A program made the translations under genes and the position numbers. The notes under the pieces are model-generated. The model saw only the letters and a program-made list of their open reading frames with translations, made no database searches and was not told the origin of the DNA. Source: Comamonas sp. GB3 AK4-5 (GTDB taxonomy: Bacteria > Pseudomonadota > Gammaproteobacteria > Burkholderiales > Burkholderiaceae_C). Taken from it: 64,000 nucleotides of DNA. The DNA lies in assembly GCF_041320665.1 (NCBI RefSeq), contig NZ_CP166730.1, positions 124,001-188,000 of the forward strand, given 5' to 3'. This document shows positions 17,924 through 59,852 of this stretch, piece after piece; within the stretch, counting starts at the first letter, position 1, and each line of letters begins with the position of its first letter.

Positions 17924-17968
17924 CAGGGCACCGCGCAAGGGCCGCCCCGCAGCGCCTCAGGGGGGTGT
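17924..17968 (-). repeat. 3'-end repeat, copy 1 (short form), downstream of pckG
   Basis: Read on the minus strand it gives cccccctgaggcgct joined directly to gcggggcggcccttgcgcgg and tgccctg. It therefore has the head and tail of the element without the central C/G-tract hairpin. It begins within a few bases of the pckG stop codon and has the same orientation as pckG. Confidence 0.8.
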
Positions 17969-17969
17969 C

Positions 17970-19838
17970 TCAGGCACCCAGCCGCTGTTCCAACTGCACC
18001 TTGGCATCCAGCAAGGCCTGGGGCAGGCCCTGGGCCAGCTGCTCAAAATGGGCGCTGTGCAGCTGCAGCTCTTCGGCCCAGGCAGCCTTGTCGATGCTGG
18101 TCACGCTGGCGAACTGCTCGGCCGAGAAGTCCAGGCCGGTCCAGTTGATTTCGGCGTACTGCGGAGCCACGCCAAAAGCGGTGGTCTGCCCCTGCACGCT
18201 GCCTTCGATGCGGTCGATCATCCACTTCAGCACGCGCATGTTCTCGCCATAGCCGGGCCAGACGAACTTGCCGTCGGCATTCTTGCGGAACCAGTTGGTG
18301 GTGAAGATCTTGGGCAGCTGGGCGCCTTGCGCTTCGATCTTGGCGCCCAGGTCCAGCCAGTGCTGGAAATAGGCGCTCATGTTGTAGCCGGCAAAGGGCA
18401 GCATGGCGAAGGGGTCGCGGCGCACCACGCCCTGGGCGCCAAAGGCGGCGGCCGTGGTTTCAGAGCCCATGGTGGCGGCCATGTAGACGCCCTCGGTCCA
18501 GTTGCGGGCCTCGGTCACCAGCGGCACGGTGGTGGAGCGGCGGCCGCCAAAAATCATGGCGTCGATCTTCACGCCCTTGGGGTCGTCCCAAGCCTCGTCC
18601 AGCGCCGGGTTGTTGGTGGCGGCCACGGTGAAGCGGGCATTGGGGTGGGCTGCCTTGGCACCGGTTTCCTTGGCGATGGCGGGCGTCCAGTCCTGGCCCT
18701 TCCAGTCGATCAGGTGGTCAGGCAGCTTGCCCTGGTCTTTTTCCAGACCTTCCCACCACACATCGCCGTCGTCCGTCAGCGCCACGTTGGTGAAGATGAC
18801 GTCCTTGTCCAGGCTCTTCATGCAGTTCGGGTTGGTGAGCAGATTGGTGCCCGGCGCCACGCCGAAATAGCCCGCCTCGGGGTTGATGGCGCGCAAGCTG
18901 CCATCGGCCTGGGGCTTGATCCAGGCGATGTCGTCGCCAATGGTGGTGACGTTCCAGCCCGCAAAACCGGCAGGTGGCACCAGCATGGAGAAGTTGGTCT
19001 TGCCGCAGGCGCTGGGGAAGGCCGCTGCCACGTGGTATTTCTTGCCCTCGGGGTTGGTGACGCCCAGGATCAGCATGTGCTCGGCCAGCCAGCCTTGGTC
19101 ACGGCCCATGGTGGAGGCAATGCGCAGCGCAAAGCATTTCTTGCCCAGCAGGGCGTTGCCGCCGTAGCCCGAGCCATACGACCAGATCTCGCGCGTTTCC
19201 GGGTAGTGCACGATGTACTTGGTCGTGGGGTTGCAGGGCCAGCTGGTCTTGTCGGTCTCGCCTGCGGCCAGCGGTGCGCCCACGGTGTGCATGCAGGGCA
19301 CGAACTCGCCGTCTTCGCCGATCACGTCGTACACGGCACGTCCCATGCGCGTCATGATCTTCATGTTCACCGCCACATAGGCGCTGTCGGACAGCTCGAT
19401 GCCGATGTGGGCAATGGGCGAACCCAGCGGGCCCATGGAAAACGGCACCACATACATGGTGCGGCCTGCCATGCAGCCGTCAAACAGCGGCTGCAGCGTG
19501 GCGCGCATTTCGTTGGGCGCCATCCAGTTGTTGGTCGGGCCTGCGTCTTCCTTCTTGGCCGAGCAGATATAGGTGCGGTCTTCCACGCGGGCCACGTCCG
19601 AAGGATCGGACCAGGCCAGATAGCTGCCGGGGCGCTTGGCGGGGTTGAGCTTCTTGAAGGTGCCTGCATCCACCAGTTGCTGGCACAGCGCGTCGTATTC
19701 CGCTTGCGAGCCATCGCACCAATGGATCTTGGCGGGCTTGCACAGTGCGGCCATCTCGGCCACCCAGGCGATCAGCTTGGGGTTTTTGACGTAGGCAGGG
19801 GCTTGTACCTGCAGGGCCTGGGGGGCGTGGGCATTCAT
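17970..19838 (-). CDS. pckG: Phosphoenolpyruvate carboxykinase (GTP)
   Basis: 622 residues, the size of the GTP-dependent class (EC 4.1.1.32). It converts oxaloacetate + GTP to phosphoenolpyruvate for gluconeogenesis. The kinase P-loop [14 protein letters not shown] is at residues 273-286 and includes the hyper-reactive cysteine of this class. [20 protein letters not shown] and the guanine-binding region [19 protein letters not shown] also match. It is preceded by a clear ribosome-binding site (aggagac) and about 275 bp of non-coding DNA. It is probably monocistronic. Confidence 0.97.
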
Positions 19839-20023
19839 CGAAAGGTCTCCTGATTGTGATTCAACGTGCTTGCCGAACCAGACTCAAAAAAAACGTGAGC
19901 GGGAGGGTGGTTGGGCAAGGGCGCTGACCTGCTGCATTGGCAGGAGCTGATCCGTGGGCGGTAGCTGGGAGAGCCATTCTAGGAAGGCAGCCGCAAAAAG
20001 CCAGTAGGGCGAAGGCAAAAACT

Positions 20024-20038
20024 ATGCATCATATGCAT
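20024..20038. promoter_or_regulatory. Perfect palindrome ATGCAT-CAT-ATGCAT upstream of pckG
   Basis: Two ATGCAT hexamers flank a central CAT, in an AT-rich patch 186 bp upstream of the pckG start and beyond the terminator of the small gene on its other side. It is a candidate operator or AT-rich promoter element. No known regulator's consensus was recognised. Confidence 0.35.
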
Positions 20039-20070
20039 CGATATATGTCTTTTTTGCGAATGCCGGGCGC

Positions 20071-20091
20071 AAAAAAAGCCCCTTGCGGGGC
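20071..20091 (-). terminator. Rho-independent terminator of the 50-residue membrane protein
   Basis: On the minus strand the stem gcccc / ggggc with a gcaa loop is followed by T7. It begins 25 bp after the stop of the small gene. The stem is short but the T-run is strong. Confidence 0.78.
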
Positions 20092-20115
20092 GGGGATGCG
20101 GCCGGGTGTGGGGCC

Positions 20116-20268
20116 TCAAGCCATGTTCACGGCGATAAAGGCCAACAAAAACATCATGATGGCTCCCACCAAGGGGATCACATAGGGGATGTAGGGCACC
20201 ACCGCTTCGGCGGCGTCGTCCGGGTCGATCTGGGGCTGGGCATCGTGGGCGGTGTGCTCATGGCTCAT
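20116..20268 (-). CDS. Small single-pass membrane protein, unknown function
   Basis: 50 residues from ATG 20268, which follows a Shine-Dalgarno-like aaggagtg. The N-terminal half is hydrophilic and acidic with histidines (SHEHTAHDAQPQIDPDDAAE). The C-terminal half is one hydrophobic helix (YVIPLVGAIMMFLLAFIAVN). Support for a real gene comes from the ribosome-binding site, its own terminator, and a plausible acidic-tail plus transmembrane design. It lies between pckG and ilvA on the same strand. No function can be assigned. Confidence 0.65.
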   Translation of the reverse strand: MSHEHTAHDAQPQIDPDDAAEAVVPYIPYVIPLVGAIMMFLLAFIAVNMA

Positions 20269-20400
20269 GCGTTCACTCCTTGCTCGGTGGCGCGGCGCAC
20301 CACATGCCAGCATTGTGAAAGCGCCGCTGACCCCTTGGCTACAGGGTTATCCACGCAGCGGTGTCGTCCTCCGCATGAAACTGGCGGGGCCCAAGTCAGA

Positions 20401-20475
20401 GACAGCGAGCAAGGGCCGCCCCGCAGCGAGGCTGTCGTCCCCTGGGGGAAGGCGCCGTAGGCGACTCAGGGGGGG
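20401..20475 (-). repeat. 3'-end repeat, copy 2, downstream of threonine ammonia-lyase
   Basis: On the minus strand it reads ccccccctgagtcgcctacg, then gcgccttcccccaggggacg, acagcctcgctgcggggcgg and cccttgctcgctgtc. It abuts the stop codon of the gene with no spacer and has that gene's orientation. The central cccccagggg forms a short hairpin. Confidence 0.85.
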
Positions 20476-21675
20476 TCAAGCTCGTTCTGCTTGCATCCCC
20501 GCCGCGCGCAGCGCCTCCAGCACCTGCTCCACATGCTGGGGGTTGCGGGTCTGCAGCACAAAGTCGATTTCCACATTCTGGGCGGCCAGCAGCGTGAAGG
20601 CACGCTGGTGGTGCACCTCCTCGATGTTCGCGCCGGCAGCGGCCACGGTGGCGGTGATCTGGGCCAGCACGCCGGGCACGTCGCGGGCGCTGACGCGTAT
20701 GCGTGCCAAGCGGCCGGAGCGCACCATGCCGCGCTCGATGATGGCGGCCAGCAGCAGCGGGTCGATGTTGCCGCCGGACAGGATCAGGCCCACTTTCTGG
20801 CCCAGGAACTTGTCGCGGTGGCGGATCAGCGCTGCCAGGCCCGCAGCGCCCGCGCCCTCCACCAGGGTTTTTTCAATCTCCAGCAGCATCAGCACGGCCT
20901 GCTCCACATCGCCCTCGTCCACCAGCAGCAGCTCGTCCACCTGCTGGCGCACGACTTCGCGGGTGATGAGCCCTGCCGTGGCCACGGCAATGCCCTCGGC
21001 AATCGTGGACTGGCCCATGGGCAGCTCCGTGCCCTGCACGGCGTTGAGCATGGACGGAAAGCGCTGCGTCTGCACGCCCACCACGCGTATGCCGGGTTTG
21101 AGGGCCTTGGCTGCGGTGGCCACGCCGGCAATCAAGCCGCCGCCGCCCACGGCCACTACCAGGGTCTCCAGATCGGGTTGTGCGGCCAGCATTTCCATGG
21201 CCACCGTGCCCTGGCCGGCGGCCACGGCCTCGTCGTCAAACGGGTGCACAAAGGTGAGGTTGTGTGCCTCGGCCAGTTGGTAGGCATGCTGGCGGGCTTC
21301 TTCCAGCGTGTCACCGTGCAGCAGCACCTCGGCGCCAAAGCCGCGGGTGCGCTCCACCTTCACCCCGGGCGTGAAGCGCGGCATCACGATCACGGCGCGC
21401 AGGCCCATGCGCTGCGCGTGATAGGCCACACCCTGGGCGTGGTTGCCGGCGCTCATGGCAATCACGCCGCGTGCTTTTTCCTCGCTGCTTAACAGCTGCA
21501 GGCGGTTGCTGGCGCCGCGCTCCTTGAACGAGGCGGTGAACTGCAGGTTCTCGAACTTGAGAAACACCTGGGCGCCCACGATGTGCGAGAGCGTCTGCGA
21601 TTCGACGCAAGGGGTTTGCAGCACCTGGTCACGCAGGCGGGTGGAGGCAGCTTGGATGTCGGCGTAGGTCAGCAT
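20476..21675 (-). CDS. ilvA: Threonine ammonia-lyase
   Basis: 399 residues: a PLP fold-type II catalytic domain (about 1-320) plus one C-terminal ACT domain (about 325-399, RIRVSARDVPGVLAQITATV). The PLP lysine is in TASFKERGASNRL and the phosphate loop is VGGGGLIAG. It deaminates threonine (and serine) to 2-oxobutyrate (EC 4.3.1.19). The single short ACT domain and the length resemble the TdcB/catabolic-like type rather than the 500-residue biosynthetic IlvA, so its role (isoleucine supply or catabolism) is open. Confidence 0.9.
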   Translation of the reverse strand: MLTYADIQAASTRLRDQVLQTPCVESQTLSHIVGAQVFLKFENLQFTASFKERGASNRLQLLSSEEKARGVIAMSAGNHAQGVAYHAQRMGLRAVIVMPRFTPGVKVERTRGFGAEVLLHGDTLEEARQHAYQLAEAHNLTFVHPFDDEAVAAGQGTVAMEMLAAQPDLETLVVAVGGGGLIAGVATAAKALKPGIRVVGVQTQRFPSMLNAVQGTELPMGQSTIAEGIAVATAGLITREVVRQQVDELLLVDEGDVEQAVLMLLEIEKTLVEGAGAAGLAALIRHRDKFLGQKVGLILSGGNIDPLLLAAIIERGMVRSGRLARIRVSARDVPGVLAQITATVAAAGANIEEVHHQRAFTLLAAQNVEIDFVLQTRNPQHVEQVLEALRAAGMQAERA

Positions 21676-21767
21676 GGTGCGGCCATTGTGGCGCAGGCCG
21701 GCCGGGCATGGAGGCCGGCCTGAATGTGGCTTTTGCTGCCAAGGGGGCGGGCGGCAGGCTTGTTATC

Positions 21768-21786
21768 TAAAATAGGAATCATTATC
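21768..21786 (+). promoter_or_regulatory. Fur-box-like site upstream of the AraC regulator gene
   Basis: taaaataggaatcattatc matches 14 of 19 positions of the Fur consensus GATAATGATAATCATTATC. The right half is perfect. It lies 20 bp before the ATG at 21807, consistent with iron repression. Confidence 0.72.
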
Positions 21787-21806
21787 AAAAACTTGTTGGG
21801 CAGGGC

Positions 21807-22823
21807 ATGGCTTCTCTCTTGGCTTGCCGCCCGCCGCGCTGGATGGGGCTGGGCACTTTGCGCGCATGCGACTTTGGCGCGCCGGACCTCAGTTTTCTCG
21901 ATGCCGAGGTCCAGGCGCAACAGGTGTTGATGGCAGGCCATGTGCAGGCCCTGCAACTGCAGCGCGGTCTGTGGTTGCATGGGGTGGAGGCCAGCGATTT
22001 GTGTACGCTGCGCTCCAGCGTACCGGCCGAACCCGGCCTGCATCTGGTGGTGCTGCTGGAAGGACGGGTGGACGTGGCCTTTGGCGGGCAGCGCCTGCAG
22101 ATGCAGGTCGACCCGCTGGCAGGGCCCCAGACCGGGGCCTGCGGAGCCGTGGTGCACTCACGTCCCGGCGATGCCTTTGTGCGCCGCTGGCAGCGTGGCA
22201 AATACGAGCGCAAGCTCAGCCTGAGCGTGGAGCCCTGCTGGCTGGAGGCCCAGACCCTGGATGGGGCCGCCCTGCCATTGCTGCGCCACTGGCGTCAACA
22301 CCAGCAGTTGGTCATCCGCCCATGGCAGCCTTCGGTGCGTGCCGTGGCCGTGGCCGAGCAAATCATCCAGCTGGCACGTGAAGGCAAGGCGCCGGTGCTG
22401 CTGCTCAGCCGTGCGCTGGAGCTGGTGCATGAGGCCTTGCAGTCGCTGGTGGAAAGCGGTCAGGCCCTGAAAGCACAGAGCGCCCCGCCAGTGCTGGGCC
22501 TGCGCGAGCACCAGCGCCTGATGCGGCTCAAGGCGGTGTTGGACAGCGAGACCGAGTGCTTTCGGCCCCTGGCCGATATTGCGCGGGACATCGGCCTTAG
22601 CCCCAGCGCGCTGCAACGCCAGTTTCGCCAGGTGTTTGGCAGCAGCATGGACGAGTACCGCCGCGATCAGCGCCTGGAACGCGCCTGGGCCCAGCTGGAG
22701 CAGACCGGGCGCAGCGTGTCCGAGGTTGCCCATGCGGCCGGCTATACCAGCGCGGCCAATTTCTCCACGGCCTTCAAACGGCGCTATGGCATATCGCCGA
22801 AGTGGGTGCGGGGGAAAATTTAA
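21807..22823 (+). CDS. AraC-family transcriptional regulator (PchR-like)
   Basis: 338 residues. The last 100 form the double helix-turn-helix AraC domain (PLADIARDIGLSPSALQRQF, VSEVAHAAGYTSAANFSTAF, then RRYGISPKWVR). The N-terminal 220 residues form an effector domain like that of PchR-type regulators, which activate siderophore-receptor genes on binding a ferric siderophore. The Fur-like box upstream and the TonB receptor plus siderophore reductase downstream support that role. The inducing siderophore is unknown. Confidence 0.85.
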   Translation: MASLLACRPPRWMGLGTLRACDFGAPDLSFLDAEVQAQQVLMAGHVQALQLQRGLWLHGVEASDLCTLRSSVPAEPGLHLVVLLEGRVDVAFGGQRLQMQVDPLAGPQTGACGAVVHSRPGDAFVRRWQRGKYERKLSLSVEPCWLEAQTLDGAALPLLRHWRQHQQLVIRPWQPSVRAVAVAEQIIQLAREGKAPVLLLSRALELVHEALQSLVESGQALKAQSAPPVLGLREHQRLMRLKAVLDSETECFRPLADIARDIGLSPSALQRQFRQVFGSSMDEYRRDQRLERAWAQLEQTGRSVSEVAHAAGYTSAANFSTAFKRRYGISPKWVRGKI

Positions 22824-22902
22824 CCCCCTGAGGCGCTTTGCGCCTTCCCCCAAGGGGGGGGACGGCATCTTCGCTGCGGGGCGGCCCTTGCTGGATGCCT
22901 CT
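22824..22902 (+). repeat. 3'-end repeat, copy 3, after the AraC gene
   Basis: It starts at the base after the TAA stop: ccccctgaggcgctttgcgc, cttcccccaagggggggacg, gcatcttcgctgcggggcgg, cccttgctgg. It opens a 508-bp non-coding stretch (22824-23331) that also holds a detached repeat tail (23014-23056) and a Fur-like box (23171-23191). Confidence 0.87.
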
Positions 22903-23013
22903 GAGATGGGCTCTGCCAGTTTGGAATGCTGCGAGCTATGGATTGGCTCTTTGCCCTGTTGAGGCTATCCCGGTGGGCACTGCCTTTGTGGAAAAGACAG
23001 CATCCACGTTGCA

Positions 23014-23056
23014 GGGAGGCGGCCCTTGCTCGCTGTCCCAGGCTGGGGGCGTGCGG
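23014..23056 (+). repeat. Detached tail fragment of the 3'-end repeat
   Basis: gggaggcggcccttgctcgc followed by tgtcccaggctgggggcgtg closely matches the tail of the copy after the FliK-like gene (about 57006-57048). The head is missing. It suggests an older copy truncated or split by rearrangement. Confidence 0.6.
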
Positions 23057-23170
23057 GTTTAGACGCCGTGGAGATGGTGGCAGGTGATGAGGGCGTGGAG
23101 AGTTGAGTGGGCGCGGCATGTCTGCTCGATGGAGCAGAGGGTGTGCTTGCTTGGACTTTGCTGAAAACGC

Positions 23171-23191
23171 AAATGAAAATCGTTTTCGATT
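23171..23191 (+). promoter_or_regulatory. Fur-box-like palindrome upstream of the FepA/CirA-like receptor
   Basis: aaatgaaaatcgttttcgat is a near-palindrome (GAAAATCGTTTTC core) resembling Fur hexamer arrays. It lies about 140 bp before the receptor ATG. A long leader of that size leaves room for an AraC/PchR-type activator site. Confidence 0.6.
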
Positions 23192-23331
23192 GTGGCGCAA
23201 ACATCTGCGCGGCTGGCGCAAACCACGGGGTGGGAGGGCGGTGCTGGAATCGACGGCTGTCATGCCGGGCCGTTGGGGTCCGGCGCATCCATGGCCCGGA
23301 GTGGGGTCATGCAACAGCGCGTGGAACAGCT

Positions 23332-25416: not shown

Positions 25417-25460
25417 GAGTGTGAACACGCTCTAAGTTCATCCCAAGTTATGGAGAAAGA

Positions 25461-26555
25461 ATGGAAACGACATGGCTGAAAGCCCAGACCTCGGTGCTGC
25501 AGGAAAGCGCCGGGCAGGCCCTGGCGCTGATCGTCGAGCATATGCAGGAGCATGACCTGGCCGTGCGCCAGGAGGGCGAGCTCTGGCTGGTGGACTACGG
25601 GCAGGGCCAAGGCATTCTGTGGCACGAAGCGGACGGTGTGCATGCGATTGCCAAGGCCCCCAGCATGGAGGGTCTGCAGGACATGAAGCTCATGCTGGCC
25701 CACCTGATCCTGGAGGCCACGGGGGGCGCCGATAACTCCCTGGCATGGGAGGGCGATGGTGCGGCCCTGCAACGCCCGCCGGCCTTCAGGCTGCTCACGG
25801 TGCTGCAGGTGCGGGACCTGACCCCGCATATGCGGCGCGTGCGCTTTGGCTGTGACGACCTGGCGCGCTATGCCCAGGACGCCAACATCCACTGCAAGCT
25901 GCTGTTTCCCCAGCAGGGCGAGCAGGCCCCCGAATGGCCCACGCTGTCGGCCAGCGGCATGCTCAAGCTGCCCCAGGGCGACAAGCGCCTGGACATGCGC
26001 ACCTACACCATACGGGCCATTGATGGCGCTGCGGGCTGGCTGGAGGTGGACTTTGTGCTGCACGCGGATGCCGGCCCGGGATCGGCATGGGCCACCAATG
26101 CCCAGCCCGGGCAGTTGGTGGGCATGAGCGGCCCTGGCGGGCGCACGGCCACGCCTGCCGACTGGATGCTGCTGGCTGCCGACGACACCGGTCTGCCCGC
26201 CATGCTGCGTGTGGCCGCCAGCCTGCCGGCCCATGTCTGCGGCCATGTCTTCGCGGAAGTCCACGACGGGCGCGACGAGCAAGTCGTTGCAGCCCCTGCG
26301 GGCCTGCAATGGCACTGGCTGCACCGCGGCCAGGCCAGGGCCGGCTCGCTGCTGCTGCCCGCTCTGCGCAGCGTAACTTGGCCTGCCCAGGGCGAAGGTC
26401 ACAGCCGCTTTGTCTGGGCCGCAGGCGAGTTCGAGGCCGCCCAGTCCATACGCCAATGGGCGCGCGATGCATGCGGCCTGGCCAAGAACGAGCAACTGGT
26501 CGTGGCGTACTGGCGCCAGGGGATGAGCGAGGCGGAGTTCAAGCGCGCTGCCTGA
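25461..26555 (+). CDS. Siderophore-interacting protein (ferric-siderophore reductase) with N-terminal DUF2218 domain
   Basis: 364 residues in two parts. Residues 1-90 (TTWLKAQTSVLQESAGQALA, ending MLAHLILEAT) resemble DUF2218. From about residue 108 is a SIP flavoreductase: FAD-binding barrel with RTYTIR (near 178) and NAD(P)H-binding C-terminal domain (ADDTGLPAMLRVAASLPAH, FVWAAGEFEAAQSIRQW). It releases iron from imported siderophores in the cytosol using NAD(P)H. It follows the receptor and is probably co-transcribed with it. Its TGA stop lies inside the first bases of a 3'-end repeat. Confidence 0.88.
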   Translation: METTWLKAQTSVLQESAGQALALIVEHMQEHDLAVRQEGELWLVDYGQGQGILWHEADGVHAIAKAPSMEGLQDMKLMLAHLILEATGGADNSLAWEGDGAALQRPPAFRLLTVLQVRDLTPHMRRVRFGCDDLARYAQDANIHCKLLFPQQGEQAPEWPTLSASGMLKLPQGDKRLDMRTYTIRAIDGAAGWLEVDFVLHADAGPGSAWATNAQPGQLVGMSGPGGRTATPADWMLLAADDTGLPAMLRVAASLPAHVCGHVFAEVHDGRDEQVVAAPAGLQWHWLHRGQARAGSLLLPALRSVTWPAQGEGHSRFVWAAGEFEAAQSIRQWARDACGLAKNEQLVVAYWRQGMSEAEFKRAA

Positions 26556-26625: not shown

Positions 26626-26657
26626 CCGCGCCGTAGCGCTGGGATCGCAGCTGCGCT

Positions 26658-30338: not shown

Positions 30339-30347
30339 GGTGGTGCT

Positions 30348-51061: not shown

Positions 51062-51074
51062 ATGTGAGAGAAAA

Positions 51075-52235
51075 ATGGAGCAAGCAATCTTCGATTTCGC
51101 CGTGGTCGGCGCGGGTATGGCTGGGGCCTCGGTGGCCTATCGCCTGGCGCAGGCGGGTGCTTCGGTGTTGGTGCTGGAGCGCGAGAGCCAACCCGGCTAC
51201 CACGCCACGGGCCGCTCGGCCGCCATGTTCATGGAGAGCTATGGCACGCAGCAGATTCGGGCGCTCACAAGGGCCAGCCGCGCCTTCTACAGCCAGCCGC
51301 CGCTAGGATTTTGCGAGCATGCCTTGCTGCAGCCACGCAGTGTGCTGTATGTGGGCGCAGAGGGGCAGGAGGCGCTGCTGTCGGACGCCCTGTCCATGTA
51401 CCTGCGCGAGGGCCTGCGGGCCGAGCACCTGGACGCACAGGCCGCTTGCGCGCTGGCACCCTGCCTGGAGGAGAAACAGCTCATAGGCGCGGTGCACGAT
51501 ATCGATGCCATGGACATCGACGTGGCCGAGCTGCACCAGGGCTTTTTGCGCGGCATGACACAGGCCGGAGCCCAGCTGCGCTGCAACGCGGTGCTCCGCG
51601 AGGCCGAGTGCAGCGATGAAGGCCTGTGGGCCTTGACCTTGGGGAATGGTGAAGTCGTGCGGGCCCGCTCCGTGGTGAATGCCGCAGGCGCCTGGGCCGA
51701 TGAGGTGGCCCAGGTGTGCGGAGCCCAGGCCCTGGGCATACAGCCCCGGCGCCGCTCCGCCTTCACCTTTGCCGCGCCCGAAGGTGTGGCCGTGCAGGAC
51801 TGGCCCGCTGTCATCGGTGTGGACGAGAGCTTTTACTTCAAGCCCGATGCGGGCCAGTTGCTGGGCTCGCCCGCCAATGCCGACCCTGTGGAGCCGCACG
51901 ACGTGGTGGCCGAGGAGCTGGATGTGGCCACCGGCATTTACCGCATCGAGTCCATGACCAGTCTGCGCATACACAGGCCGCGCCATGTCTGGGCGGGGCT
52001 GCGCAGCTTTGCCCCGGACGATGACTTTGTCATGGGCTGGGATGCGCAATGCCAGGGCTTTTTCTGGCTGGCGGGCCAGGGCGGCTATGGCATTCAGACG
52101 GCGGCCGGCGCCTCCGAGGCCGCCTGCGCCCTGCTGCTGGGCCAGGCGTTGCCTGAGGCCCTGCTGGCCCAGGGCGTGGATGCCGCCCAGCTCAGCCCGG
52201 CGCGCTTTGCCAGCCCGGCCAGTGCGCAGGGCTGA
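51075..52235 (+). CDS. D-arginine dehydrogenase-like FAD oxidoreductase (DauA family)
   Basis: 386 residues. FAD motif VVGAGMAGASVAYRLAQAG at residues 10-28. GYHATGRSAA places the conserved active-site His at 43 and YGTQQIRALTRASRAFY follows, closely resembling DauA of Pseudomonas aeruginosa. So do DESFYFKPDAGQLLGSPANA, DPVEPHD and GLRSF (substrate-binding Arg). DauA oxidises D-arginine and other D-amino acids to iminoacids, with FAD reoxidised by an acceptor other than oxygen. It is followed by a transporter gene 57 bp away and an XRE-cupin regulator, forming a likely D-amino-acid module. Substrate identity is inferred. Confidence 0.82.
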   Translation: MEQAIFDFAVVGAGMAGASVAYRLAQAGASVLVLERESQPGYHATGRSAAMFMESYGTQQIRALTRASRAFYSQPPLGFCEHALLQPRSVLYVGAEGQEALLSDALSMYLREGLRAEHLDAQAACALAPCLEEKQLIGAVHDIDAMDIDVAELHQGFLRGMTQAGAQLRCNAVLREAECSDEGLWALTLGNGEVVRARSVVNAAGAWADEVAQVCGAQALGIQPRRRSAFTFAAPEGVAVQDWPAVIGVDESFYFKPDAGQLLGSPANADPVEPHDVVAEELDVATGIYRIESMTSLRIHRPRHVWAGLRSFAPDDDFVMGWDAQCQGFFWLAGQGGYGIQTAAGASEAACALLLGQALPEALLAQGVDAAQLSPARFASPASAQG

Positions 52236-52292
52236 GAGCGTAAACACGCTCTGAACCACTTTCACACACCCTAAAAATCAAAGGAGACAGAG

Positions 52293-53369
52293 ATGCATGC
52301 GTTCAAGGAGATATGCAAGATCGCCGGGGCTTTTGTCGGCGTCATCGTGGGCGCGGGCTTTGCCTCGGGCCAGGAAATTCTGCAGTTCTTTGCCAGCTTC
52401 GGCAGCCAGGGCCTGTGGGGTTGCGTCGTGGCAGGGCTGGCGTTTGTGTTTCTGTCCATGGCGTTTTCCACCATGGGCCAGCGCCTGCGGGCCGAGTCGC
52501 ACAAGGAAGTGGTGCAGGCCTTGCTGGGCAAGCATGTGGGCTGGGTGTTCGATGTGCTGATCACCTTCTTTTTGTTTGCCATCACCGTGGTCATGTTGGC
52601 GGGGGCGGGCTCGCTGCTGCACCAGTGGCTGGGTATTTCCGAGGTCTGGGGCAGCGTGCTGGCCACCGTGGCCACGGCGCTGATCGTCTGCCTGGATGTC
52701 GGCCGTGTCATCGCCTTCATTGGCGCGGTCACACCGCTGCTGATGTTCATGACCGTGGTCGTGGCCGGCTATGTGCTGGGCACACCCCATGCCGATGTGG
52801 CCACGCTGCAGGCCGCTGCGACCGAGCAGCCCAAGGGTGCGAGCCACTGGCTGGTGGCGGCCCTGCTCTATGTCTCCTACAACGTGGTGGCGGGTATGCC
52901 TTTTCTGGTCATCATGGGCGGCCAGGCCAGCTCGCGCCGCGTGGCCCTGTGGGGCGGGGTGCTGGGGGGCTTGCTGCTGGGCCTGCTGATGCTGCTGATT
53001 GCCGCCGCCATGTACTGGCGCATGGACACACTGGGCGGCCTGTCCATGCCCATGCTGTCGCTGGCCACGCAGATCTCGCCCTGGTTGGGTCACCTGATGT
53101 CCCTGGTCATCTTCGGCATGATCCTCAACACGGCCGTGGGCATGCTCTACGCCTTCATGGCCCGCATCGTGCCGGTGGCCACGCCCAAGTTCCGCTGGGG
53201 CACAGCCCTGGCCTCGGTGCTGGCCCTGGGCGGCAGCTTTGTGGGCTTCATCGCCCTGGTGGGCATGGTCTACCCCATCTACGGCTATATCGGCTTTGCG
53301 CTCATGGCCTGCGCCTTGCTGGGCTGGCTGCGCATGGACCGTAGCCAGGTGGTGCCCGGGCGGGCCTGA
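52293..53369 (+). CDS. YkvI-family membrane transporter
   Basis: 358 residues with about ten hydrophobic segments. It begins KIAGAFVGVIVGAGFASGQE, the signature start of the YkvI/neurotransmitter-symporter-like family, where the unwound first helix binds sodium and substrate in relatives. Further segments are VVMLAGAGSLLHQWLGI and VSYNVVAGMPFLVIMGG. Probable amino-acid or amine uptake at the inner membrane, with the substrate plausibly the one oxidised by the adjacent DauA-like enzyme. It has a good ribosome-binding site (aggagac). Confidence 0.8.
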   Translation: MHAFKEICKIAGAFVGVIVGAGFASGQEILQFFASFGSQGLWGCVVAGLAFVFLSMAFSTMGQRLRAESHKEVVQALLGKHVGWVFDVLITFFLFAITVVMLAGAGSLLHQWLGISEVWGSVLATVATALIVCLDVGRVIAFIGAVTPLLMFMTVVVAGYVLGTPHADVATLQAAATEQPKGASHWLVAALLYVSYNVVAGMPFLVIMGGQASSRRVALWGGVLGGLLLGLLMLLIAAAMYWRMDTLGGLSMPMLSLATQISPWLGHLMSLVIFGMILNTAVGMLYAFMARIVPVATPKFRWGTALASVLALGGSFVGFIALVGMVYPIYGYIGFALMACALLGWLRMDRSQVVPGRA

Positions 53370-53472
53370 TCGCGGGGGCGAGGCAGGGGCCGAAAGCCTG
53401 GCGGGAGGGCCGGGGCGCTGGGGCATCAACAGGCCCTAGAATCTGCGCATCACAAGCCCCACCACGCCCCGC

Positions 53473-54129
53473 ATGCCAGGCCCTGGTTCTCGTCCATCGC
53501 CCAACCAAATTCTTGCCTCCGTCCTGCCCGGTGCGGCAGGTGCGGCCCCTGTTTCTGCACCCGTGGGCAAGCAGGAGGTGGGCGCCAAGCTGCGCAAGGA
53601 ACGCAAGCAGCGCGGCATGACCTTGCAGCAGCTGGCCGAGCGCAGCGGGCTGGCCGTCTCCACCATCTCCAAGGCCGAGCGCGGAGCGATGGCGCTGAGC
53701 TACGAAAAAATGCTCAAACTGGGCGCGGCCCTGGACATCGACATGACGCGGCTGTTCATGGGGGCCGATGCCGTGGTGCCACCCAAGGGCAGCCGGCCCA
53801 CGGTGGTCAAGGACTGCTTTGACGATGTGCAGCGCTACGAGACCGATCAGTATGTGTACAGCGTGCTGTGCGGTGCCTACCCGGACAAGAAAATGCAGCC
53901 GCTGATGGCGGTGATCAATGCCCGTGAGGCGGCCGATTTCTCCGAAACCATACGCCACCCGGGCCAGGAGTTCGTCATCGTGCTCTCGGGGCGGGTGCGC
54001 ATTCTGTTTGAGAACGGGGAAGTGCTGGAGCTGGGCCGCCATGAGGCCGCCTACTTCGACAGCGGCATAGGCCATGTGTATGTCAGCCTGAGCAAGCAGC
54101 CGGCCCAGGTGGTGAGTGTGTGCTGTTGA
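53473..54129 (+). CDS. XRE-family regulator with C-terminal cupin domain
   Basis: 218 residues. Helix-turn-helix at about residues 38-92 (GAKLRKERKQRGMTLQQLAE, GLAVSTISKAERGAMALS). The C-terminal cupin at about 120-215 (RHPGQEFVIVLSGRVRILFE, ELGRHEAAYFDSGIGH) is presumably the effector-binding part. This architecture is common in local regulators of amine and amino-acid catabolism (PuuR-like). Its position after the DauA-like and YkvI genes suggests it regulates them. Confidence 0.9.
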   Translation: MPGPGSRPSPNQILASVLPGAAGAAPVSAPVGKQEVGAKLRKERKQRGMTLQQLAERSGLAVSTISKAERGAMALSYEKMLKLGAALDIDMTRLFMGADAVVPPKGSRPTVVKDCFDDVQRYETDQYVYSVLCGAYPDKKMQPLMAVINAREAADFSETIRHPGQEFVIVLSGRVRILFENGEVLELGRHEAAYFDSGIGHVYVSLSKQPAQVVSVCC

Positions 54130-54232
54130 GACCCCCTGAGTCGCCTGCGGCGCCTTCCCCCTGAAAGGGGGATACAAGGGGACGGCAGCCTCGCTGCGGG
54201 GCGACCCTTGCGCGGTGTCTCTGGCTTGGGGG
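54130..54232 (+). repeat. 3'-end repeat, copy 5, after the XRE-cupin gene
   Basis: It begins at the base after the TGA stop: accccctgagtcgcctgcgg, cgccttccccctgaaagggg, gatacaaggggacggcagcc, tcgctgcggggcgacccttg, cgcggtgtctctggcttggg. This is a full-length form with the C-tract/G-tract hairpin (ccccctgaaaggggg). The rest of the 190-bp gap before the MetH-module gene shows nothing else recognisable. Confidence 0.88.
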
Positions 54233-54320
54233 TGCCCGTGTGGCCTTGCTGGGAGGGTAAGGTCGTTGCAGCAAGCCGTGGCTGGGCAGGGTCTGTGCGG
54301 AGTTCCTACAATCTCGGGCC

Positions 54321-55385
<1,065 letters not shown>

Positions 55386-55492
55386 CACCCCCCTGAGGCG
55401 CTGCGCGCCTTCCCCTGGAATAGGGAGACAGGGGGACGCTGCCGGCGCTTACCAACCGTACAAGGCGGCCCTTGCGCTGTGCCCTGGTGTGG
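55386..55492 (+). repeat. 3'-end repeat, copy 6, after the MetH module
   Basis: It starts after the TAA stop: cacccccctgaggcgctgcg, cgccttcccctggaataggg, agacagggggacgctgccgg, then a diverged centre, and the tail ggcggcccttgcgctgtgcc. The tail is longer and looser than in other copies. The remaining 144 bp to the next gene show no other feature. Confidence 0.83.
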
Positions 55493-55636
55493 GCGGGGCA
55501 GGGCAGTGTGGATAGTGGGCAACACAAAATGCCGCAGAGATAGGTACAGGGTTTTTTGTAGATAAAAAGCGCTGAAGCACATAGCCATAGGGATTGTGTA
55601 GCTCCTTTTTGCAGAGCAGATTCCCATCTGCCGAAG

Positions 55637-56926
55637 ATGGCGCCTGCTGCCCGGCCCGCCACTTTCCCCTACAGTCGCACCGTGACCTCTAGCTTGCCCC
55701 CTTCCATGCCCAGTACCGCAGCGCCGGTAGCGTCTCCCGTGCCTGGGGCGGGCACGGCGAGTCCGGTGGCGGGCGTGACGCAGACGGTCCCGACGCCGGC
55801 CGTATTCAGCGTGCCCGGCGTGTCTGGGGTGGCCGCTGCTGCCCAGGTGGCGCCGATTCTGGCGGCTGCCCAGGCGGCGCTGGCCAGCCAGGTCAATCTC
55901 TCGCCCCAGGCGCAGCAGGCCATCAAGGCCGAGGCCTTTGCCCAATTGGTGGCCCAGCTGGTGCAGCAAATCCAGGGCAGCAATGTGCAGCAGCCAGCCA
56001 ACTGGCCGGCCGGGGGCGTGACGCCCCAGTGGCAGGCCCTGCTGCAGGCCCTGGTGCAACAGGCATCGGCCGGCCAGCCCCTGCCCCAGCAACTGGTCAG
56101 TGCCCAGTCCTGGCCATCGACCCTGGTGCAGACCGTGCTGCAGAACCTGGGCGCCGGGGCCCCGCCGGCCCCATCACCACAGGTGCCGGCCCAGCCTCCG
56201 CCTTCGTTGACGGCGCAGCTGCCCGCTGCAGCGGGCAACGCGGTGCCGCCAGGCAGCGGGCCAGCCGGCATGCTGCGCCCGGCTCTGCCGCCGTTGCAGA
56301 ACTGGCTGGTGCAGCAAGGCGTGTTGCAGGGGCCAGATGGTGACCGGGCCTTCACGCTGACGCTGCGCGTGCCCGTGGCCTGGGCCCAGGCGCAAAGCGT
56401 GCTGGGCCAGGCGCTGGGTGCGCAGCCTGCAGCCAGCCCGGCCTTGCTGGGCGGTGGCAGCGGCCCATTGGGAGCAGGCAGCGCATTGGGGGCGTTGCTG
56501 CTGCCCTATGGCAGCAGCGTCCAGCCCTTGGCCAACACCAGCTTTGGTTTGGTATTGCAGCCCCAGGGCCTGCCTGCTGCCCAGGCGCAGGCCATGCGCA
56601 CCAGTGCCGTGCTGCAGCTGGAGTTTCAGCCGCTGCCCAATGCGGCGGCCAGTGCGGCCCAGCAATCGGTGGCTGCCGCCCTGCTGCCCGCCGGCATGCT
56701 GCCGCAAGAGGCCTACCAGGCCTTGCTGGCGCGCGGCGGCGATCCCTGGCTGCACATGGCCCAGCAACAAGCCAGCGGCCAGTTGCCACGCGAGCGCCAG
56801 CACCATGGTGAGGGCCAGCAATGCGACCGCGCCGGCTGCCAGTATCAGGGCCGGGCCGAATGTGCCCAGCCGTTTTGCGCCGAGATGAACAGCATCTGGG
56901 CGGCGGATAGGGCGGGGAGACGGTGA
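55637..56926 (+). CDS. FliK-like (flagellar hook-length control-related) orphan protein
   Basis: 429 residues, very rich in Ala, Gln and Pro, especially 1-250 (VQQPANWPAGGVTPQWQALL). This low-complexity N-terminal region followed by a more ordered part (QLEFQPLPNAA-type strand, about 330-360) resembles FliK-type proteins. The last 45 residues are different: C-x3-G-x3-C and QPFC spaced within CQYQGRAECAQPFCAEM, suggesting a conserved metal- or disulfide-binding tail. No flagellar genes are adjacent, so a flagellar role is unproven. The exact start is uncertain; MPSTAAPVAS further in is an alternative. Confidence 0.6.
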   Translation: MAPAARPATFPYSRTVTSSLPPSMPSTAAPVASPVPGAGTASPVAGVTQTVPTPAVFSVPGVSGVAAAAQVAPILAAAQAALASQVNLSPQAQQAIKAEAFAQLVAQLVQQIQGSNVQQPANWPAGGVTPQWQALLQALVQQASAGQPLPQQLVSAQSWPSTLVQTVLQNLGAGAPPAPSPQVPAQPPPSLTAQLPAAAGNAVPPGSGPAGMLRPALPPLQNWLVQQGVLQGPDGDRAFTLTLRVPVAWAQAQSVLGQALGAQPAASPALLGGGSGPLGAGSALGALLLPYGSSVQPLANTSFGLVLQPQGLPAAQAQAMRTSAVLQLEFQPLPNAAASAAQQSVAAALLPAGMLPQEAYQALLARGGDPWLHMAQQQASGQLPRERQHHGEGQQCDRAGCQYQGRAECAQPFCAEMNSIWAADRAGRR

Positions 56927-57048
56927 CACCCCCCTGAGGCACTACGTGCCTTCCCCCCGCTCTCGCGTCGCTGCGCTCGCGGGCAGGGGGACGACAGCCT
57001 CGCTGCGAGGCGGCTCTTGCTCGCTGTCTCTGGTTGGGGGCGGTGCGA
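56927..57048 (+). repeat. 3'-end repeat, copy 7, after the FliK-like gene
   Basis: Immediately after the TGA stop: cacccccctgaggcactacg, tgccttccccccgctctcgc, gtcgctgcgctcgcgggcag, ggggacgacagcctcgctgc, gaggcggctcttgctcgctg. The longest copy; its centre has an extra hairpin from an inverted ctcgcg/cgcgag-type arm. Confidence 0.86.
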
Positions 57049-57103
57049 GCGCTGTGCCGGGGGCAGCGCTTTTTGGTAGGTCCGAACGAGGCGCTATGAG
57101 CGC

Positions 57104-57835
57104 TTAAAAACTTCCTGTGAACTGGTAGCGCGAGGCGGGGTGCCACAGCGCCGATACCGAGGCAACCTGGCCTTGCGAGTGGGTGCGTCGGCGCAGCACC
57201 AGGCAGGGTTCCTGGGCTTCCATGCGCAGCAGCTCGGCCATTTCTGCGCTGGGCATGCCGGCCTCGATGGAGAACTCCACCCCTTGCAACGGCGCCACGC
57301 GCATCAGGTAGGCGTTGGGGGTCTGGCTGGCAAAGTCCTGCGACAGGTAGTCGGGCGCCACGGCGGGGTTGACGTAGCGATCTTCCAGCTGGATGGGTAG
57401 ATCGTTTTCGTAGTGCACGACCACCGAATGGAACAAGGTGTGCGGCAGCTCCAGCTTGAATTCGTGCATCAGCGCGGGCTCGGCCTTGCAGCGTTCCAGC
57501 CGCTGCAGCTCACCGCGGTGCAGATGGCCGCGTGCCGCGATCTCGTCCGCAATATTGCGCAGCTGCACCAGGGTGGACTGGTATTTGTGCTGGGCCACAA
57601 ACGTGCCCGATCCCTGGACCCGCGTCAGTGTCTGGTCGTCGCTGAGTTCGCGCAGCGCGCGGTTCACCGTCATGCGTGCCACGCCGAACTGCTTGGCCAG
57701 CGCGGCCTCGCTGGGGATGGCCTGGCCCTGTTGCCACTGCCCGCTTTGAATTTGCTGCAGCACATAGTCCTTGATGCGCTGGAATGCAGGGGCTGCGGCA
57801 GAGGGCGATGGGTCAGGTTGAGAAGGCGGACGCAT
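57104..57835 (-). CDS. hutC: Histidine utilisation repressor HutC
   Basis: 243 residues, GntR family, HutC subfamily. Winged helix at about 15-80 (AFQRIKDYVLQQIQSGQWQQ, GVARMTVNRALRELSDDQTL, VQGSGTFVAQ). The UTRA effector domain (about 95-240) includes ALMHEFKLELPHTLFHSVVV, ENDLPIQLEDRYVNPAVAPD and ends RYQFTGSF. HutC is released from DNA by urocanate. It is divergent from hutU across 178 bp holding two candidate operators. The start at 57835 (MRPPSQP) was preferred. Confidence 0.95.
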   Translation of the reverse strand: MRPPSQPDPSPSAAAPAFQRIKDYVLQQIQSGQWQQGQAIPSEAALAKQFGVARMTVNRALRELSDDQTLTRVQGSGTFVAQHKYQSTLVQLRNIADEIAARGHLHRGELQRLERCKAEPALMHEFKLELPHTLFHSVVVHYENDLPIQLEDRYVNPAVAPDYLSQDFASQTPNAYLMRVAPLQGVEFSIEAGMPSAEMAELLRMEAQEPCLVLRRRTHSQGQVASVSALWHPASRYQFTGSF

Positions 57836-57899
57836 AGGGTTTGTCAGGAGCAGAAAGTGGTCGCAGGAGATTGACGTTGCCCGCAAGTGAATCACAGAA

Positions 57900-57947
57900 T
57901 TGGTATAGACAACTTATGAATTTTCAATTGTTTGTTGTATGTATCAG
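57900..57947. promoter_or_regulatory. Two HutC-operator-like sites between hutC and hutU
   Basis: ttggtatagacaactt (57900-57915) is a near-palindrome resembling HutC sites such as TTGTATAGACAA. A second, weaker match ttgttgtatgtatcag (57932-57947) follows, centred about 32 bp from the first. Both lie in the divergent region and could repress hutC and hutU together. Confidence 0.6.
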
Positions 57948-58013
57948 TTTGGTCCGGGCAGGCACGCCGCTTTCGTCGCCTGACAAGCCAAACCGCTTTG
58001 CCACCTTTCTCTG

Positions 58014-59741
58014 ATGGACACCACCATGAACGCCAATGACGCCATCCTCCACACCGATCCCCGTTACGACGCCAGCCGCGTGATCCGTGCCCCCCGTGGC
58101 AATACCCTGCATTGCAAAAACTGGCTGGCCGAAGCCGCCTACCGCATGCTGCAAAACAATCTGGACCCCGATGTGGCCGAGAACCCCAAGGCCCTGGTGG
58201 TCTACGGGGGCATAGGCCGTGCGGCGCGCAACTGGGCCTGCTTTGACGAGATCCTGGCCCAGCTGAAAAAGCTGGAGGCCGACGAGTCGCTGCTGATCCA
58301 GTCCGGCAAGCCCGTGGGTGTGTTCAAAACCCATGCCGATGCACCGCGCGTGCTGCTGGCCAACTCCAATCTGGTGCCCAAATGGGCCACCTGGGAGAAG
58401 TTCAACGAGCTGGACCAGAAGGGCCTGTTCATGTACGGCCAGATGACGGCGGGCAGCTGGATTTACATCGGCAGCCAGGGCATTGTGCAAGGCACGTTCG
58501 AGACCTTTGTCGAGGCCGGTCGCCAGCACTACAACAACGACCTCACAGGCAAATGGATTCTCACCGCCGGCCTGGGCGGCATGGGCGGTGCCCAGCCCCT
58601 GGCCGCCACGCTGGCCGGTGCCTGCTCGCTGAACATCGAGTGCAAGCAATCCAGCATCGACTTCCGCCTGCGCACCCGCTATGTGGACAAGCAGGCCAAG
58701 GATATTGATGACGCGCTGGCGCTGATCAAGCACCACACAGGCCGGGGCGAGGCGGTCTCCATCGCCCTGCTGGGCAATGCCGCCGAGGTGCTGCCCGAGC
58801 TGGTCAAGCGCGCCAAGGCGGAGGGCCCCCGCCCCGACATCGTGACCGACCAGACCTCGGCCCACGACCTGGTCAACGGCTACCTGCCCGTGGGCTGGAC
58901 CGTGGTGCAATGGGAGGCTGCAGCGGCCGATCCTGCCCAGCACGCCAGGCTCACCAAAGCCGCAGCCCAAAGCTGTGCCCAGCATGTGCAAGCCATGCTG
59001 GACTTCCAGGCCATGGGCATTCCCACGGTGGATTACGGCAACAACATCCGCCAGGTGGCCCTGGATGAAGGCGTGAAAAACGCCTTCGACTTCCCTGGCT
59101 TTGTGCCGGCCTATATCCGCCCGCTGTTCTGTGAAGGCAAGGGCCCGTTCCGTTGGGTGGCCCTGTCCGGCGACCCCGAAGATATTTACAAGACCGACGC
59201 CAAGATCAAGGAATTGTTCCCCGAGAATAAGCACACACATCGCTGGCTGGAAATGGCCCGTGAGCGTATCGCTTTTCAGGGACTGCCTTCACGCATCTGC
59301 TGGTTGGGCCTGGGCGAGCGCCACAAGGCGGCCCTGGCCTTTAACGAGATGGTGAAAAACGGCGAGCTCAAAGCACCCATCGTCATCGGTCGCGACCACC
59401 TGGACTGCGGCTCCGTGGCCAGCCCCAACCGTGAAACCGAAGCCATGAAAGACGGCACCGATGCCGTCTCCGACTGGCCGCTCTTGAACGCCCTGCTCAA
59501 CACCGCAGGTGGCGCCACCTGGGTCAGCCTGCACCACGGCGGTGGTGTGGGCATGGGCTACTCCCAGCACTCGGGCGTGGTCATCGTCGCCGATGGCACG
59601 GAGGAAGCCGCGAGGCGCCTGGGCCGCGTGCTGTGGAACGACCCGGCGACCGGTGTGATGCGCCATGCCGATGCGGGTTATGACATTGCCGTGGAAGCCT
59701 CCAAGCGCCATGGTTTGAACCTGCCGATGGTGGGGGAGTGA
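58014..59741 (+). CDS. hutU: Urocanate hydratase
   Basis: 575 residues, an NAD+-containing hydratase (EC 4.2.1.49), step two of histidine degradation (urocanate to imidazolone propionate). The NAD-binding signature [20 protein letters not shown] is near residues 184-203. The catalytic-cysteine segment [16 protein letters not shown] and [17 protein letters not shown] are strongly conserved. It is the first gene of the plus-strand hut genes. The start at 58014 is used; ATG 58026 is in frame. Confidence 0.97.
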
Positions 59742-59852
59742 GATGCACCCCCTGAGCCGCTTCGCGTCGTCCCCCTCTCTGGCGCTGCGCGCCGGAGGGG
59801 GACGGCACCAGCGCGGCGGGGCGGCCCTTGCGCGGTGCCCTGGCATGGGCCG
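59742..59852 (+). repeat. 3'-end repeat, copy 8, after hutU
   Basis: It starts right after the TGA: gatgcaccccctgagccgct, tcgcgtcgtccccctctctg, gcgctgcgcgccggaggggg, acggcaccagcgcggcgggg, cggcccttgcgcggtgccct. The centre differs (two short GC hairpins) but head and tail match. It lies in the 322-bp hutU-hutH gap, which also contains the second repeat at 59919-59957. Nothing else is recognisable there. Confidence 0.85.

Follow-up and report, generated by a model that had tools for sequence, protein, structure and literature searches.

A REP-like repeat element that directly follows stop codons in bacteria of the Comamonas type and in certain relatives

The DUS/USS sequences of Neisseria and Pasteurellaceae are words of about 9-12 nt that occur in inverted-orientation pairs, and they resemble the element described here in that a repeated word doubles as a structure 3' of genes. 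That REPs lie close to stop codons has been described before (PMC3733652; PMC12306157). In E. coli, REPs less than 16 nt from a stop have been reported to stall ribosomes and to lower translation, and while 260 of 496 REPs had been proposed to act in this way in an earlier study cited by the same source, a later count gave 446 of 4,072 as stop-proximal (PMC12306157). The ends of GTAG REPs often provide a TAG stop (Di Nocera et al., 2013; PMC3733652). The Beta-proteobacterial repeat element (BRE) was described from Betaproteobacteria, including Comamonadaceae, as a unit of 75-91 bp that is often tandem and has some copies in ORFs, and it was without assigned function in 2011 (Hot et al., 2011; PMC3110155).

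A preliminary description of a 64-kb window of the Comamonas sp. GB3 AK4-5 genome (the whole stretch of DNA analysed) had listed eight intergenic copies of a repeat, six on the plus and two on the minus strand, each close to the stop codon of a gene in its own orientation. All eight were recovered on the strands given, each matching the gene that ends there: six are near full length, one is internally deleted and one is decayed. The copies and related features, with the distance of each copy from the stop, are as follows:

17903-17964, minus strand: internally deleted copy, 3' of the gene for a GTP-type PEP carboxykinase, which has its stop at 17970, +5 nt
20375-20473, minus strand: full element, short class, 3' of a PALP/ACT (threonine dehydratase-like) gene, +2 nt, E 2e-17
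22824-22925, plus strand: full element, short class, 3' of an AraC-type regulator gene, 0 nt, E 3e-19
22995-23061, plus strand: headless partial copy, the ninth in the window, in the same gap as 22824-22925, E 1.7e-6
26548-about 26625 (3' limit approximate), plus strand: degenerate copy at the end of a siderophore-interacting protein gene, -8 class
54132-54235, plus strand: full element, 3' of an HTH-cupin regulator gene, +2 nt
55389-55499, plus strand: full element, 3' of a homocysteine S-methyltransferase gene, +3 nt
56930-57046, plus strand: full element, long class, 3' of a gene without a Pfam match, +3 nt
59748-59863, plus strand: full element, 3' of the urocanase gene hutU, +6 nt
59818-59831, plus strand: example of the apex motif GGGGCGGCCCTTGC, in the hutU copy
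59859-59863, plus strand: example of the positioned T-run at the 3' end, in the hutU copy
59918-59942, plus strand: hairpin of a second repeat family, downstream of the hutU copy

In the 17903-17964 copy the head joins the apex motif directly, with the head, the apex and the GCCAGTTTT end all kept, and the orthologue of the PEP carboxykinase gene in the sister species G184 carries a full element. The headless copy consists only of the long stem and the tail, and its GACAGC/GCTGTC stem is intact. The long-stem arms of the 54132-54235 copy are mismatched (GGCAGC/GGTGTC), and the apex of the 56930-57046 copy is compensated (GAG/CTC). The decayed copy at 26548 fell below the profile threshold (E<1e-3), and the TGA stop of the siderophore-interacting protein gene lies within its degenerate head.

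The element is about 100-130 nt long and displays the following features in order: (i) a head hairpin, (ii) C5/G5 tracts, (iii) a long stem that covaries and has GGGGCGGCCCTTGC as its cap, and (iv) a 3' end, GCGCCAGTTT(T), which is located ~45 nt downstream of the start of the apex motif and lies beyond the limit that the preliminary description had given to the repeat. Across the 5.05 Mb of the genome, the apex 14-mer was counted 268 times and its reversed control 0 times. The long-stem arms were fully paired in 113 of 158 copies against a shuffled mean of 32 and a maximum of 51 (1000 shuffles), and the head hairpin, in the register tested, in 71 of 155 copies against a mean of 35 and a maximum of 46, with controls that leave the relatedness among copies in place. 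RNAalifold predicted 17 pairs from 47 copies. Seven of these pairs showed double changes, which were seen in 11-14 sequences apiece for four pairs and in 7 sequences for one pair of the apex. Covariation contributed little to the energy of this alignment (-1.38 of -24.5 kcal/mol) and is owed in part to a few founder stem types common to copies, and the head and terminal hairpins were both absent from the prediction. The repeat had been said to lack a consistent T-run. We observed a short one at a fixed place, with TTT present in one 12-nt window in 53% of the own copies (n=100) and 62% of those from relatives (n=58), and in 2-26% of copies in the remaining windows scanned.

A sister family with a similar layout was found in other Comamonadaceae and in Bordetella and is referred to here as likely BRE, a name given by its features and not by the published BRE sequence. 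By eye, it has the C5 head, a hairpin, a second C5 plus G5, and a stem with a GGGCGGCC apex, and its repeat spacing is 76-87 bp. Compared by eye, the element shares this layout with likely BRE, and the two may be homologous. Our element is longer, mostly single and locked to stops, unlike BRE with its shorter, often tandem and partly intragenic unit of about 75-91 bp; a few element pairs about 150-170 nt apart were seen among the matches listed. When ORFs were called from codon usage with a home-made program, 20 of the 30 loci of likely BRE in Comamonadaceae were within called ORFs, and in Bordetella it was not tied to stops (20 loci, three of them one tandem array). The element suggests that BRE belongs to a wider class of repeats, and it also gives an example of repeats that hold their position while their sequence changes.

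The likeness to stop-proximal E. coli REPs lies in a hairpin directly 3' of the stop in many genes, and the position of the element fits the REP stalling distance (within 15 nt of the stop). E. coli REPs are short palindromes of which only a part are stop-proximal, whereas the present element is about 100-130 nt long, has several helices and one orientation, and is stop-proximal in about 90% or more of its copies. As with GTAG REPs, the repeat itself can supply the stop: the head CCCCCTGAG provides a TGA in one class of copies, where GTAG REPs provide TAG. However, no GTAG tag by a 20-40 bp palindrome was found in the 47-copy consensus, nor was a RAYT gene flanked by copies, and the head-to-head dimers of GTAG and CGTC REPs are not the rule here. 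On the reverse strand, CGTC is found directly beside the C5 tract. The CGTC superfamily, however, has an 8-9 bp stem whose first two pairs contain A/T, a loop of 4-5 nt and a CCA-type tail, whereas the stem at this place consists of C/G alone and its loop varies in length between a few nt and about 30 nt. In the broad sense the element is a REP, namely a high-copy structured repeat near gene 3' ends, and the REP-like character suggested earlier is borne out in its behavior. RAYT-driven mobility was not supported; the sole Y1_Tnp gene found (C1:893121) has no recognisable copy in the surrounding 3 kb. Searches of the open-access literature, also by sequence words and with print partly covered, found no paper naming the element, in agreement with the earlier statement that no description was known. 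Its sister repeat BRE was nevertheless described in 2011, and both a similar architecture (BRE) and the closeness to stops (REPs) are already known.

The stop-tied element extends beyond the window to other Comamonas-type bacteria and some relatives. Genes were called here from codon usage by a home-made program, for which the window served as training set, and not taken from public annotation. On this basis, 93 of 103 full copies in the 1.22 Mb searched of the own genome start between -12 and +20 nt from the stop of a same-strand gene, while a random intergenic base and strand satisfies this criterion with a probability of 0.050; hits with a weak score or no head had been dropped (16/119 own, 4/48 in G184 and 3/20 in the second sister species, G169). 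The claim that copies always follow a stop holds for the eight copies of the window and, more widely, for about 90% of these 103 copies. Copies were not equally frequent upstream of genes or in antisense in the parts of relatives searched either, as evidenced by sense, stop-adjacent placement in 42/44 copies of G184, 17/17 of G169, and 27/30 of three other genera among the matches listed, the 30 being the first ten listed per genome (exact matches there were 63, 35 and 80). Two of the three misses had no recognisable head and one had an antisense upstream gene. Three plasmid copies with public CDS annotation were all sense as well, next to a thiolase (-8), RidA (-8) and a catechol 2,3-dioxygenase (+4). 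Among the 10 own exceptions, four adjoin the end of an uncalled sense ORF of at least 100 aa and two lie, by eye, directly 3' of an intrinsic-terminator-like hairpin and not of a stop. Only 1 of the 103 own copies was flagged inside a called ORF. Since 89 of 935 called gene ends in the 1.22 Mb (approximately 1 in 10) bear the element, any effect it has would be genome-wide, and the pattern of copies at unrelated genes points to a shared control element at message ends.

A role at the DNA level would presumably not require the sense orientation. We consider it probable, on balance, that the element is a multi-copy structured RNA of 3' UTRs and co-directional gaps that acts by the terminating ribosome in a REP-like manner. 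It would be transcribed within the message of the upstream gene, and its hairpins, 0-17 nt past the stop, may keep 3' exonucleases off the upstream cistron and/or delay the ribosome as it terminates, and may insulate the downstream cistron. Where a gene end has no terminator, transcription may in addition stop at the 3' hairpin with its T-run. Copies would spread and then stay similar through gene conversion, and those at other places or orientations would not be retained. At 29 classifiable shared sites the stem arm was the same at 12 and the size class at 16; the frequent difference in stem type suggests gene conversion. With its almost constant orientation and distance, and with element-free sites available in the sister species, the element offers a cleaner natural test than the E. 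coli REPs of the effect of a structure directly 3' of a stop.

Among the alternatives, a Rho-independent terminator cassette, copied genome-wide and kept where termination is useful, ranks first in probability, though we regard it as unlikely. It would account for the positioned T-run after a hairpin, and at convergent ends, where a home-made scanner called canonical terminators at 1/26 ends with and 64/219 without the element (p=0.004), the element seems to replace terminators, which speaks for the main reading as well. By eye, the element at 1054130 stands where the G184 orthologue (93% protein identity) has a terminator-like hairpin plus T-run, those at 237565 (81%) and 473226 (62%) are opposite such structures in G169, as read from an orthologue table that had no identity floor, and 254996 and 352809 are further exchange cases with weak gene matches (43-47% identity). 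T-runs of 4 or more were more frequent away from tight gene pairs (53/117 vs. 12/56, crude p=0.003; p=0.096 after stratifying by genome). However, the terminal hairpin is weak, with a mean of -5 kcal/mol and 4.4 T in 8 nt in the 53 own copies matching GCCAGTTT with at most one change; convergent ends are not clearly enriched among element-bearing ends (29/92 vs. 245/935); and the G169 gene at 373928 bears the element and then a separate terminator-like hairpin farther downstream. A point against the main reading is that at co-directional ends with gaps >150 nt the scanner's terminator rate did not differ (14/56 with and 53/205 without the element). Moreover, measured from the apex motif, the start of the next co-directional gene is no more than 130 nt away in 21/27 copies of the three other genera among the matches listed, in 12/17 of G169, 15/90 of the own genome and 8/39 of G184. 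Since many copies outside the own genome stand between such closely spaced genes, strong termination is unlikely as a general role. Some copies lie inside what we take to be operons (hutU/hutD-like, scoA-scoB-like, lipB-lipA-like and a catechol-degradation cluster). The earlier view that these are not ordinary terminators was supported, on other grounds, namely the shortness of the T-run and the relatives' copies between close co-directional genes.

Position at stops alone could arise from targeted insertion without function. The element might then be small, mobile and selfish, placed by an insertion machinery directed at the stretch immediately past stops and without a host function; this reading is doubtful, but the distribution brings it to mind. 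Presence/absence differed at 18/48 sites between the own genome and G184 and at 16/19 between the own genome and G169, both with an identity floor of 60%. The exact 14-mer is patchy in the family, with at least one copy in 53/150 sampled genomes and counts of 1 to 268; three plasmid records bear the element (E 1e-5; no phage record at this value); and it occurs at gene pairs that overlap or almost touch when empty (gaps of -4, -1, 10 and 26 nt). Against the main reading, tight pairs are not preferred in Comamonas, since an empty co-directional gap of ≤40 nt was found at 4/34 polymorphic sites versus 104/381 element-free gene pairs. Against mere mobility, no transposase is linked to the element, the few polymorphic sites inspected by eye showed no clean target duplication, and if neither selection nor templated repair is at work, it is difficult to see how the stem would be maintained. 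In addition, the own genome retained a remnant at at least 4 of 13 sites where only G184 has the element, so loss forms part of the polymorphism signal.

The tracts allow a bolder proposal, one that we hold to be improbable, in which the element works as an RNA switch and senses the terminating ribosome by letting two C5 tracts compete for one G5. The head, 0-17 nt after the stop, is inside the footprint of a terminating ribosome. A ribosome on the stop would mask the head and let the second C5 pair with the single G5, and its release would let the head C5 pair instead; if true, hundreds of genes would have their 3'-end processing, stability or read-through governed by the switch. The C5 tracts, in the head and after the head hairpin, were each intact in 121 of the 138 copies with all tracts found (20 of 158 were left out), and the same layout of two C5 and one G5 was seen by eye in likely BRE. 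Among the 30 copies with a changed G tract, full pairing was kept with the head C5 in 1 and with the second C5 in 4, and these variants did not separate the two pairings. It is most improbable that the stems are kept merely by palindrome-templated repair or gene conversion at a site that is the least harmful: the unlike stem types at shared sites, mismatched hybrids such as 54132 and the many different long-stem sequences seen by eye in likely BRE would agree with this, but harmlessness fails to explain the sense orientation (93/103 against 5% expected) or why copies hardly ever lie midway in long gaps.

A replication-strand polarity of the KOPS type was also rejected; among the matches listed, copies were on the minus strand before and on the plus strand after 142 kb, but strands are mixed throughout the genome. 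The dnaA gene lies roughly 1 kb into the contig, DnaA-box words in the window showed no excess (13 vs. 15 expected), and no dif-like site was found in the window with up to 3 mismatches to a consensus.

Rfam covariance models gave 0 matches in the window at the gathering score, and none of four sub-threshold matches (53000-60500) overlaps an element. At the hutU stop, the element was present at 15 of 20 loci in the genus (the 20 best hutU matches); eight further listed matches end at or before the gene end, and there the element is probably absent or diverged. As for the second repeat family, seen downstream of the hutU copy, 29 of its 32 repeats in 1.22 Mb are located 12-128 nt 3' of an element.

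The stop-codon element, a folded repeat of about 100–130 nt lying just 3' of stop codons in the sense of the gene, is present at all eight places named in the preliminary description, each copy being on the same strand as the gene that terminates beside it. Six of these eight copies are approximately full length. Other features of the window are as follows:

17903-17964: stop-codon element copy with an internal deletion
26548: stop-codon element copy, decayed
22995-23061: ninth piece of the stop-codon element, headless
59918-59942: repeat of a second family (CTCCCTCGCCCCTTCGGGGAGAGGGTTGGGGTGAGGGG)

The host genes of the eight copies are mutually unrelated, encoding PEP carboxykinase, a PALP/ACT enzyme, an AraC regulator, a siderophore-interacting protein, an HTH-cupin regulator, a homocysteine S-methyltransferase, a protein without a Pfam match, and urocanase. 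In the 5.05 Mb source genome, the exact 14-mer GGGGCGGCCCTTGC gave 141 forward and 127 reverse matches, and its reversed control gave 0 exact matches.

Sixty-six copies of this genome, chosen on head and apex with gene position ignored, went into a DNA profile, which was scanned over 1.22 Mb of the same genome and over 460 kb and 320 kb of two sister-species genomes, G184 (a close relative) and G169. Matches with E<1e-8 and a head present were scored; 16, 4 and 3 were dropped, respectively. The head starts between −12 and +20 nt from a same-strand stop in 93/103, 42/44 and 17/17 copies, with observed distances spanning −8 to +17, as against 5.0% when an intergenic base and a strand are drawn at random from the source genome. 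In the −8 class (17, 7 and 3 copies), the TGA within CCCCCTGAG is itself the stop of the gene. Across three other genera, 27 of 30 loci (the first ten listed from each of 63, 35 and 80 exact matches) are stop-adjacent and sense. The same placement is seen in three publicly annotated plasmid copies, those of the Comamonas odontotermitis thiolase (−8), the Diaphorobacter RidA (−8) and the Achromobacter pestifer catechol 2,3-dioxygenase (+4). On these counts the stop-bound sense placement proposed earlier is sound, and stronger than had been claimed. Among the 10 exceptions in the source genome, four have a sense ORF of ≥100 aa, absent from the gene calls, that terminates beside the head. Two others, near 570520 and 1093431, lie by eye directly 3' of a terminator-like hairpin with a T-run, with no called stop. 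The near absence of copies away from stops could reflect either targeted insertion or selective retention.

The element extends from CCCCCTGAG to GCGCCAGTTT(T) and comprises a head hairpin, of which several types occur, a pair of C5 tracts with a single G5 tract, an insert in three size classes, a long stem (its arms include GACAGC/GCTGTC, GACACC/GGTGTC, GGCACC/GGTGCC and GCTGCC/GGCAGC) and an apex that is either GGGGCGGCCCTTGC or the compensated form GAGGCGGCTCTTGC. The long-stem arms are fully paired in 113/158 copies, against a mean of 32 and a maximum of 51 in 1000 shuffles of partners; the head hairpin is less clean (71/155 in the tested register; shuffled mean 35), and since shuffling leaves kinship between copies in, independent changes are fewer than these counts. 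With 47 copies, RNAalifold predicted 17 pairs, seven of them with double changes, in the outer C5/G5 stem, the long stem and the apex, and predicted neither the head hairpin nor the terminal hairpin; the covariation term was small (−1.38 kcal/mol). The earlier statement that there is no consistent T-run needs correcting, as one 12-nt window at the 3' end holds TTT in 53% of the 100 own copies and in 62% of the 58 from relatives, compared with 2–26% for the other windows scanned. This T-run is short and its hairpin weak.

Orientation, distance to the stop and covarying stems argue for an element that would act within the upstream cistron's RNA. PMC12306157, citing an earlier study, reports that stop-proximal REPs (short palindromic repeats) of E. 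coli affect translation only if less than 16 nt away. Such action in the upstream cistron, together with this precedent, leads us to favor a REP-like role, in which the element would act when translation terminates and would affect the stability of the mRNA; by analogy, it would work most like REPs. Membership in the tagged REP families tested was rejected.

Occupancy varies among relatives. At the hutU stop, the element is present in 15/20 fetched loci of the genus and absent in 5/20, the next gene starting roughly 22–39 nt past the stop where it is absent; in eight further matches, listed only, the alignment reaches no further than the gene end. Of 80 named loci, three are labelled Comamonas, and these alone carry it at this stop. 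Comparison with G184 gave 30 common, five own-only and 13 G184-only sites, at least four of the latter with element remnants in the source genome; comparison with G169 gave three common, 10 own-only and six G169-only. At sites common with G184, mean element identity is 87.5%, which lies between that of random pairs (82%) and that of adjacent coding DNA (91%), and of 29 classifiable sites, the stem arm is unchanged at 12 (shuffled pairs 4.7) and the size class at 16 (9.6). The simplest reading of these alignments is that places are stable and that sequence may often be exchanged between copies; independent insertions at the same stops, instead of such exchange, could also have produced the pattern.

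Transcription termination would be a secondary effect, at some sites only. Canonical terminators occur at 1/26 convergent ends with the element versus 64/219 without, and at 1054130, 237565 and 473226 the element of one genome corresponds in position to a terminator-like hairpin beside the orthologue; two more such cases rest on weak gene matches, and at 373928 a relative carries both. Co-directional ends with gaps >150 nt do not differ in terminators (14/56 with the element versus 53/205 without), and convergent neighbors are not clearly enriched (29/92 copies versus 245/935 gene ends). A long gap follows most co-directional copies in the source genome, where the next start lies no more than 130 nt from the apex motif in 15/90 copies (8/39 in G184), as against 12/17 in G169 and 21/27 in the three other genera. 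Copies lie inside likely operons, which we take, partly from gene order and sequence, to be hutU with a hutD-like gene and scoA-scoB-like and lipB-lipA-like pairs, and within a catechol-degradation cluster, also a likely operon, on the Achromobacter plasmid. T-runs of ≥4 are rarer in tight pairs (12/56 versus 53/117), but the difference is not significant on stratification by genome (p=0.096). At 4/34 polymorphic sites the co-directional gap, when empty, is ≤40 nt, versus 104/381 element-free pairs, which speaks against a tight-pair preference in Comamonas. On these results, the element may end transcription at some places, but it probably does not serve as a terminator in general.

A sister repeat, CCCCCACGCTC..CGCT.CGC...CGCTGCCCCCCGAGGGGGC...CTTGGGGCGGCCC, is carried by 30 of the 150 family genomes sampled; of 30 loci, 20 lie within called ORFs and seven of the other 10 sit 3–15 nt past a sense stop. 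Its core is present in 9/15 genomes from the genus to which a Bordetella MAG belongs, with tandem spacing of 76–81 bp. Among 20 loci there, three belonging to one array, no stop-locking was seen: 16 are intergenic, and of these seven have a sense upstream gene and three lie within 2–14 nt. Its size, its hosts, its tandem arrays and its copies inside genes all match those of the Beta-proteobacterial repeat element (BRE), to which the available text of Hot et al. 2011 (PMC3110155) assigns no function. We infer that the two are the same, matching them by features because that text prints no sequence. The stop-codon element has a layout in common with this likely BRE; its identification as BRE proper was rejected. 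By eye, the sister repeat has a long stem with many differing, well-paired sequences. At three loci (L349, L353 and L345) its 3' arm extends, again by eye, to the next start codon, as if the stem had been copied from host sequence, and in L349 the arm covers a ribosome-binding-site-like AGGAGG.

Within the 1.22 Mb, 29 of 32 copies of the second repeat family lie 12–128 nt downstream of a stop-codon element on the same strand, the two forming an ordered two-module 3' region; a literature search on sequence words found no paper on the second family. Some copies of the element carry, by eye, extra GC-rich hairpin-loop inserts of about 12–16 nt (G184, G169 and the comparison loci L140-L142, L144 and L148), of TGCGGCCGGCRTAGG type in the apex and CCTAGGCGGCCCC in the head loop; the L144 apex has a related insert word, reversed. 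A single Y1-transposase-family (RAYT-like) gene was found, at C1:893121-893390 (L132), with no flanking repeats in 3 kb; from their protein sequences, we take its neighbors to be an IclR-type regulator and a glutamate-synthase-like gene.
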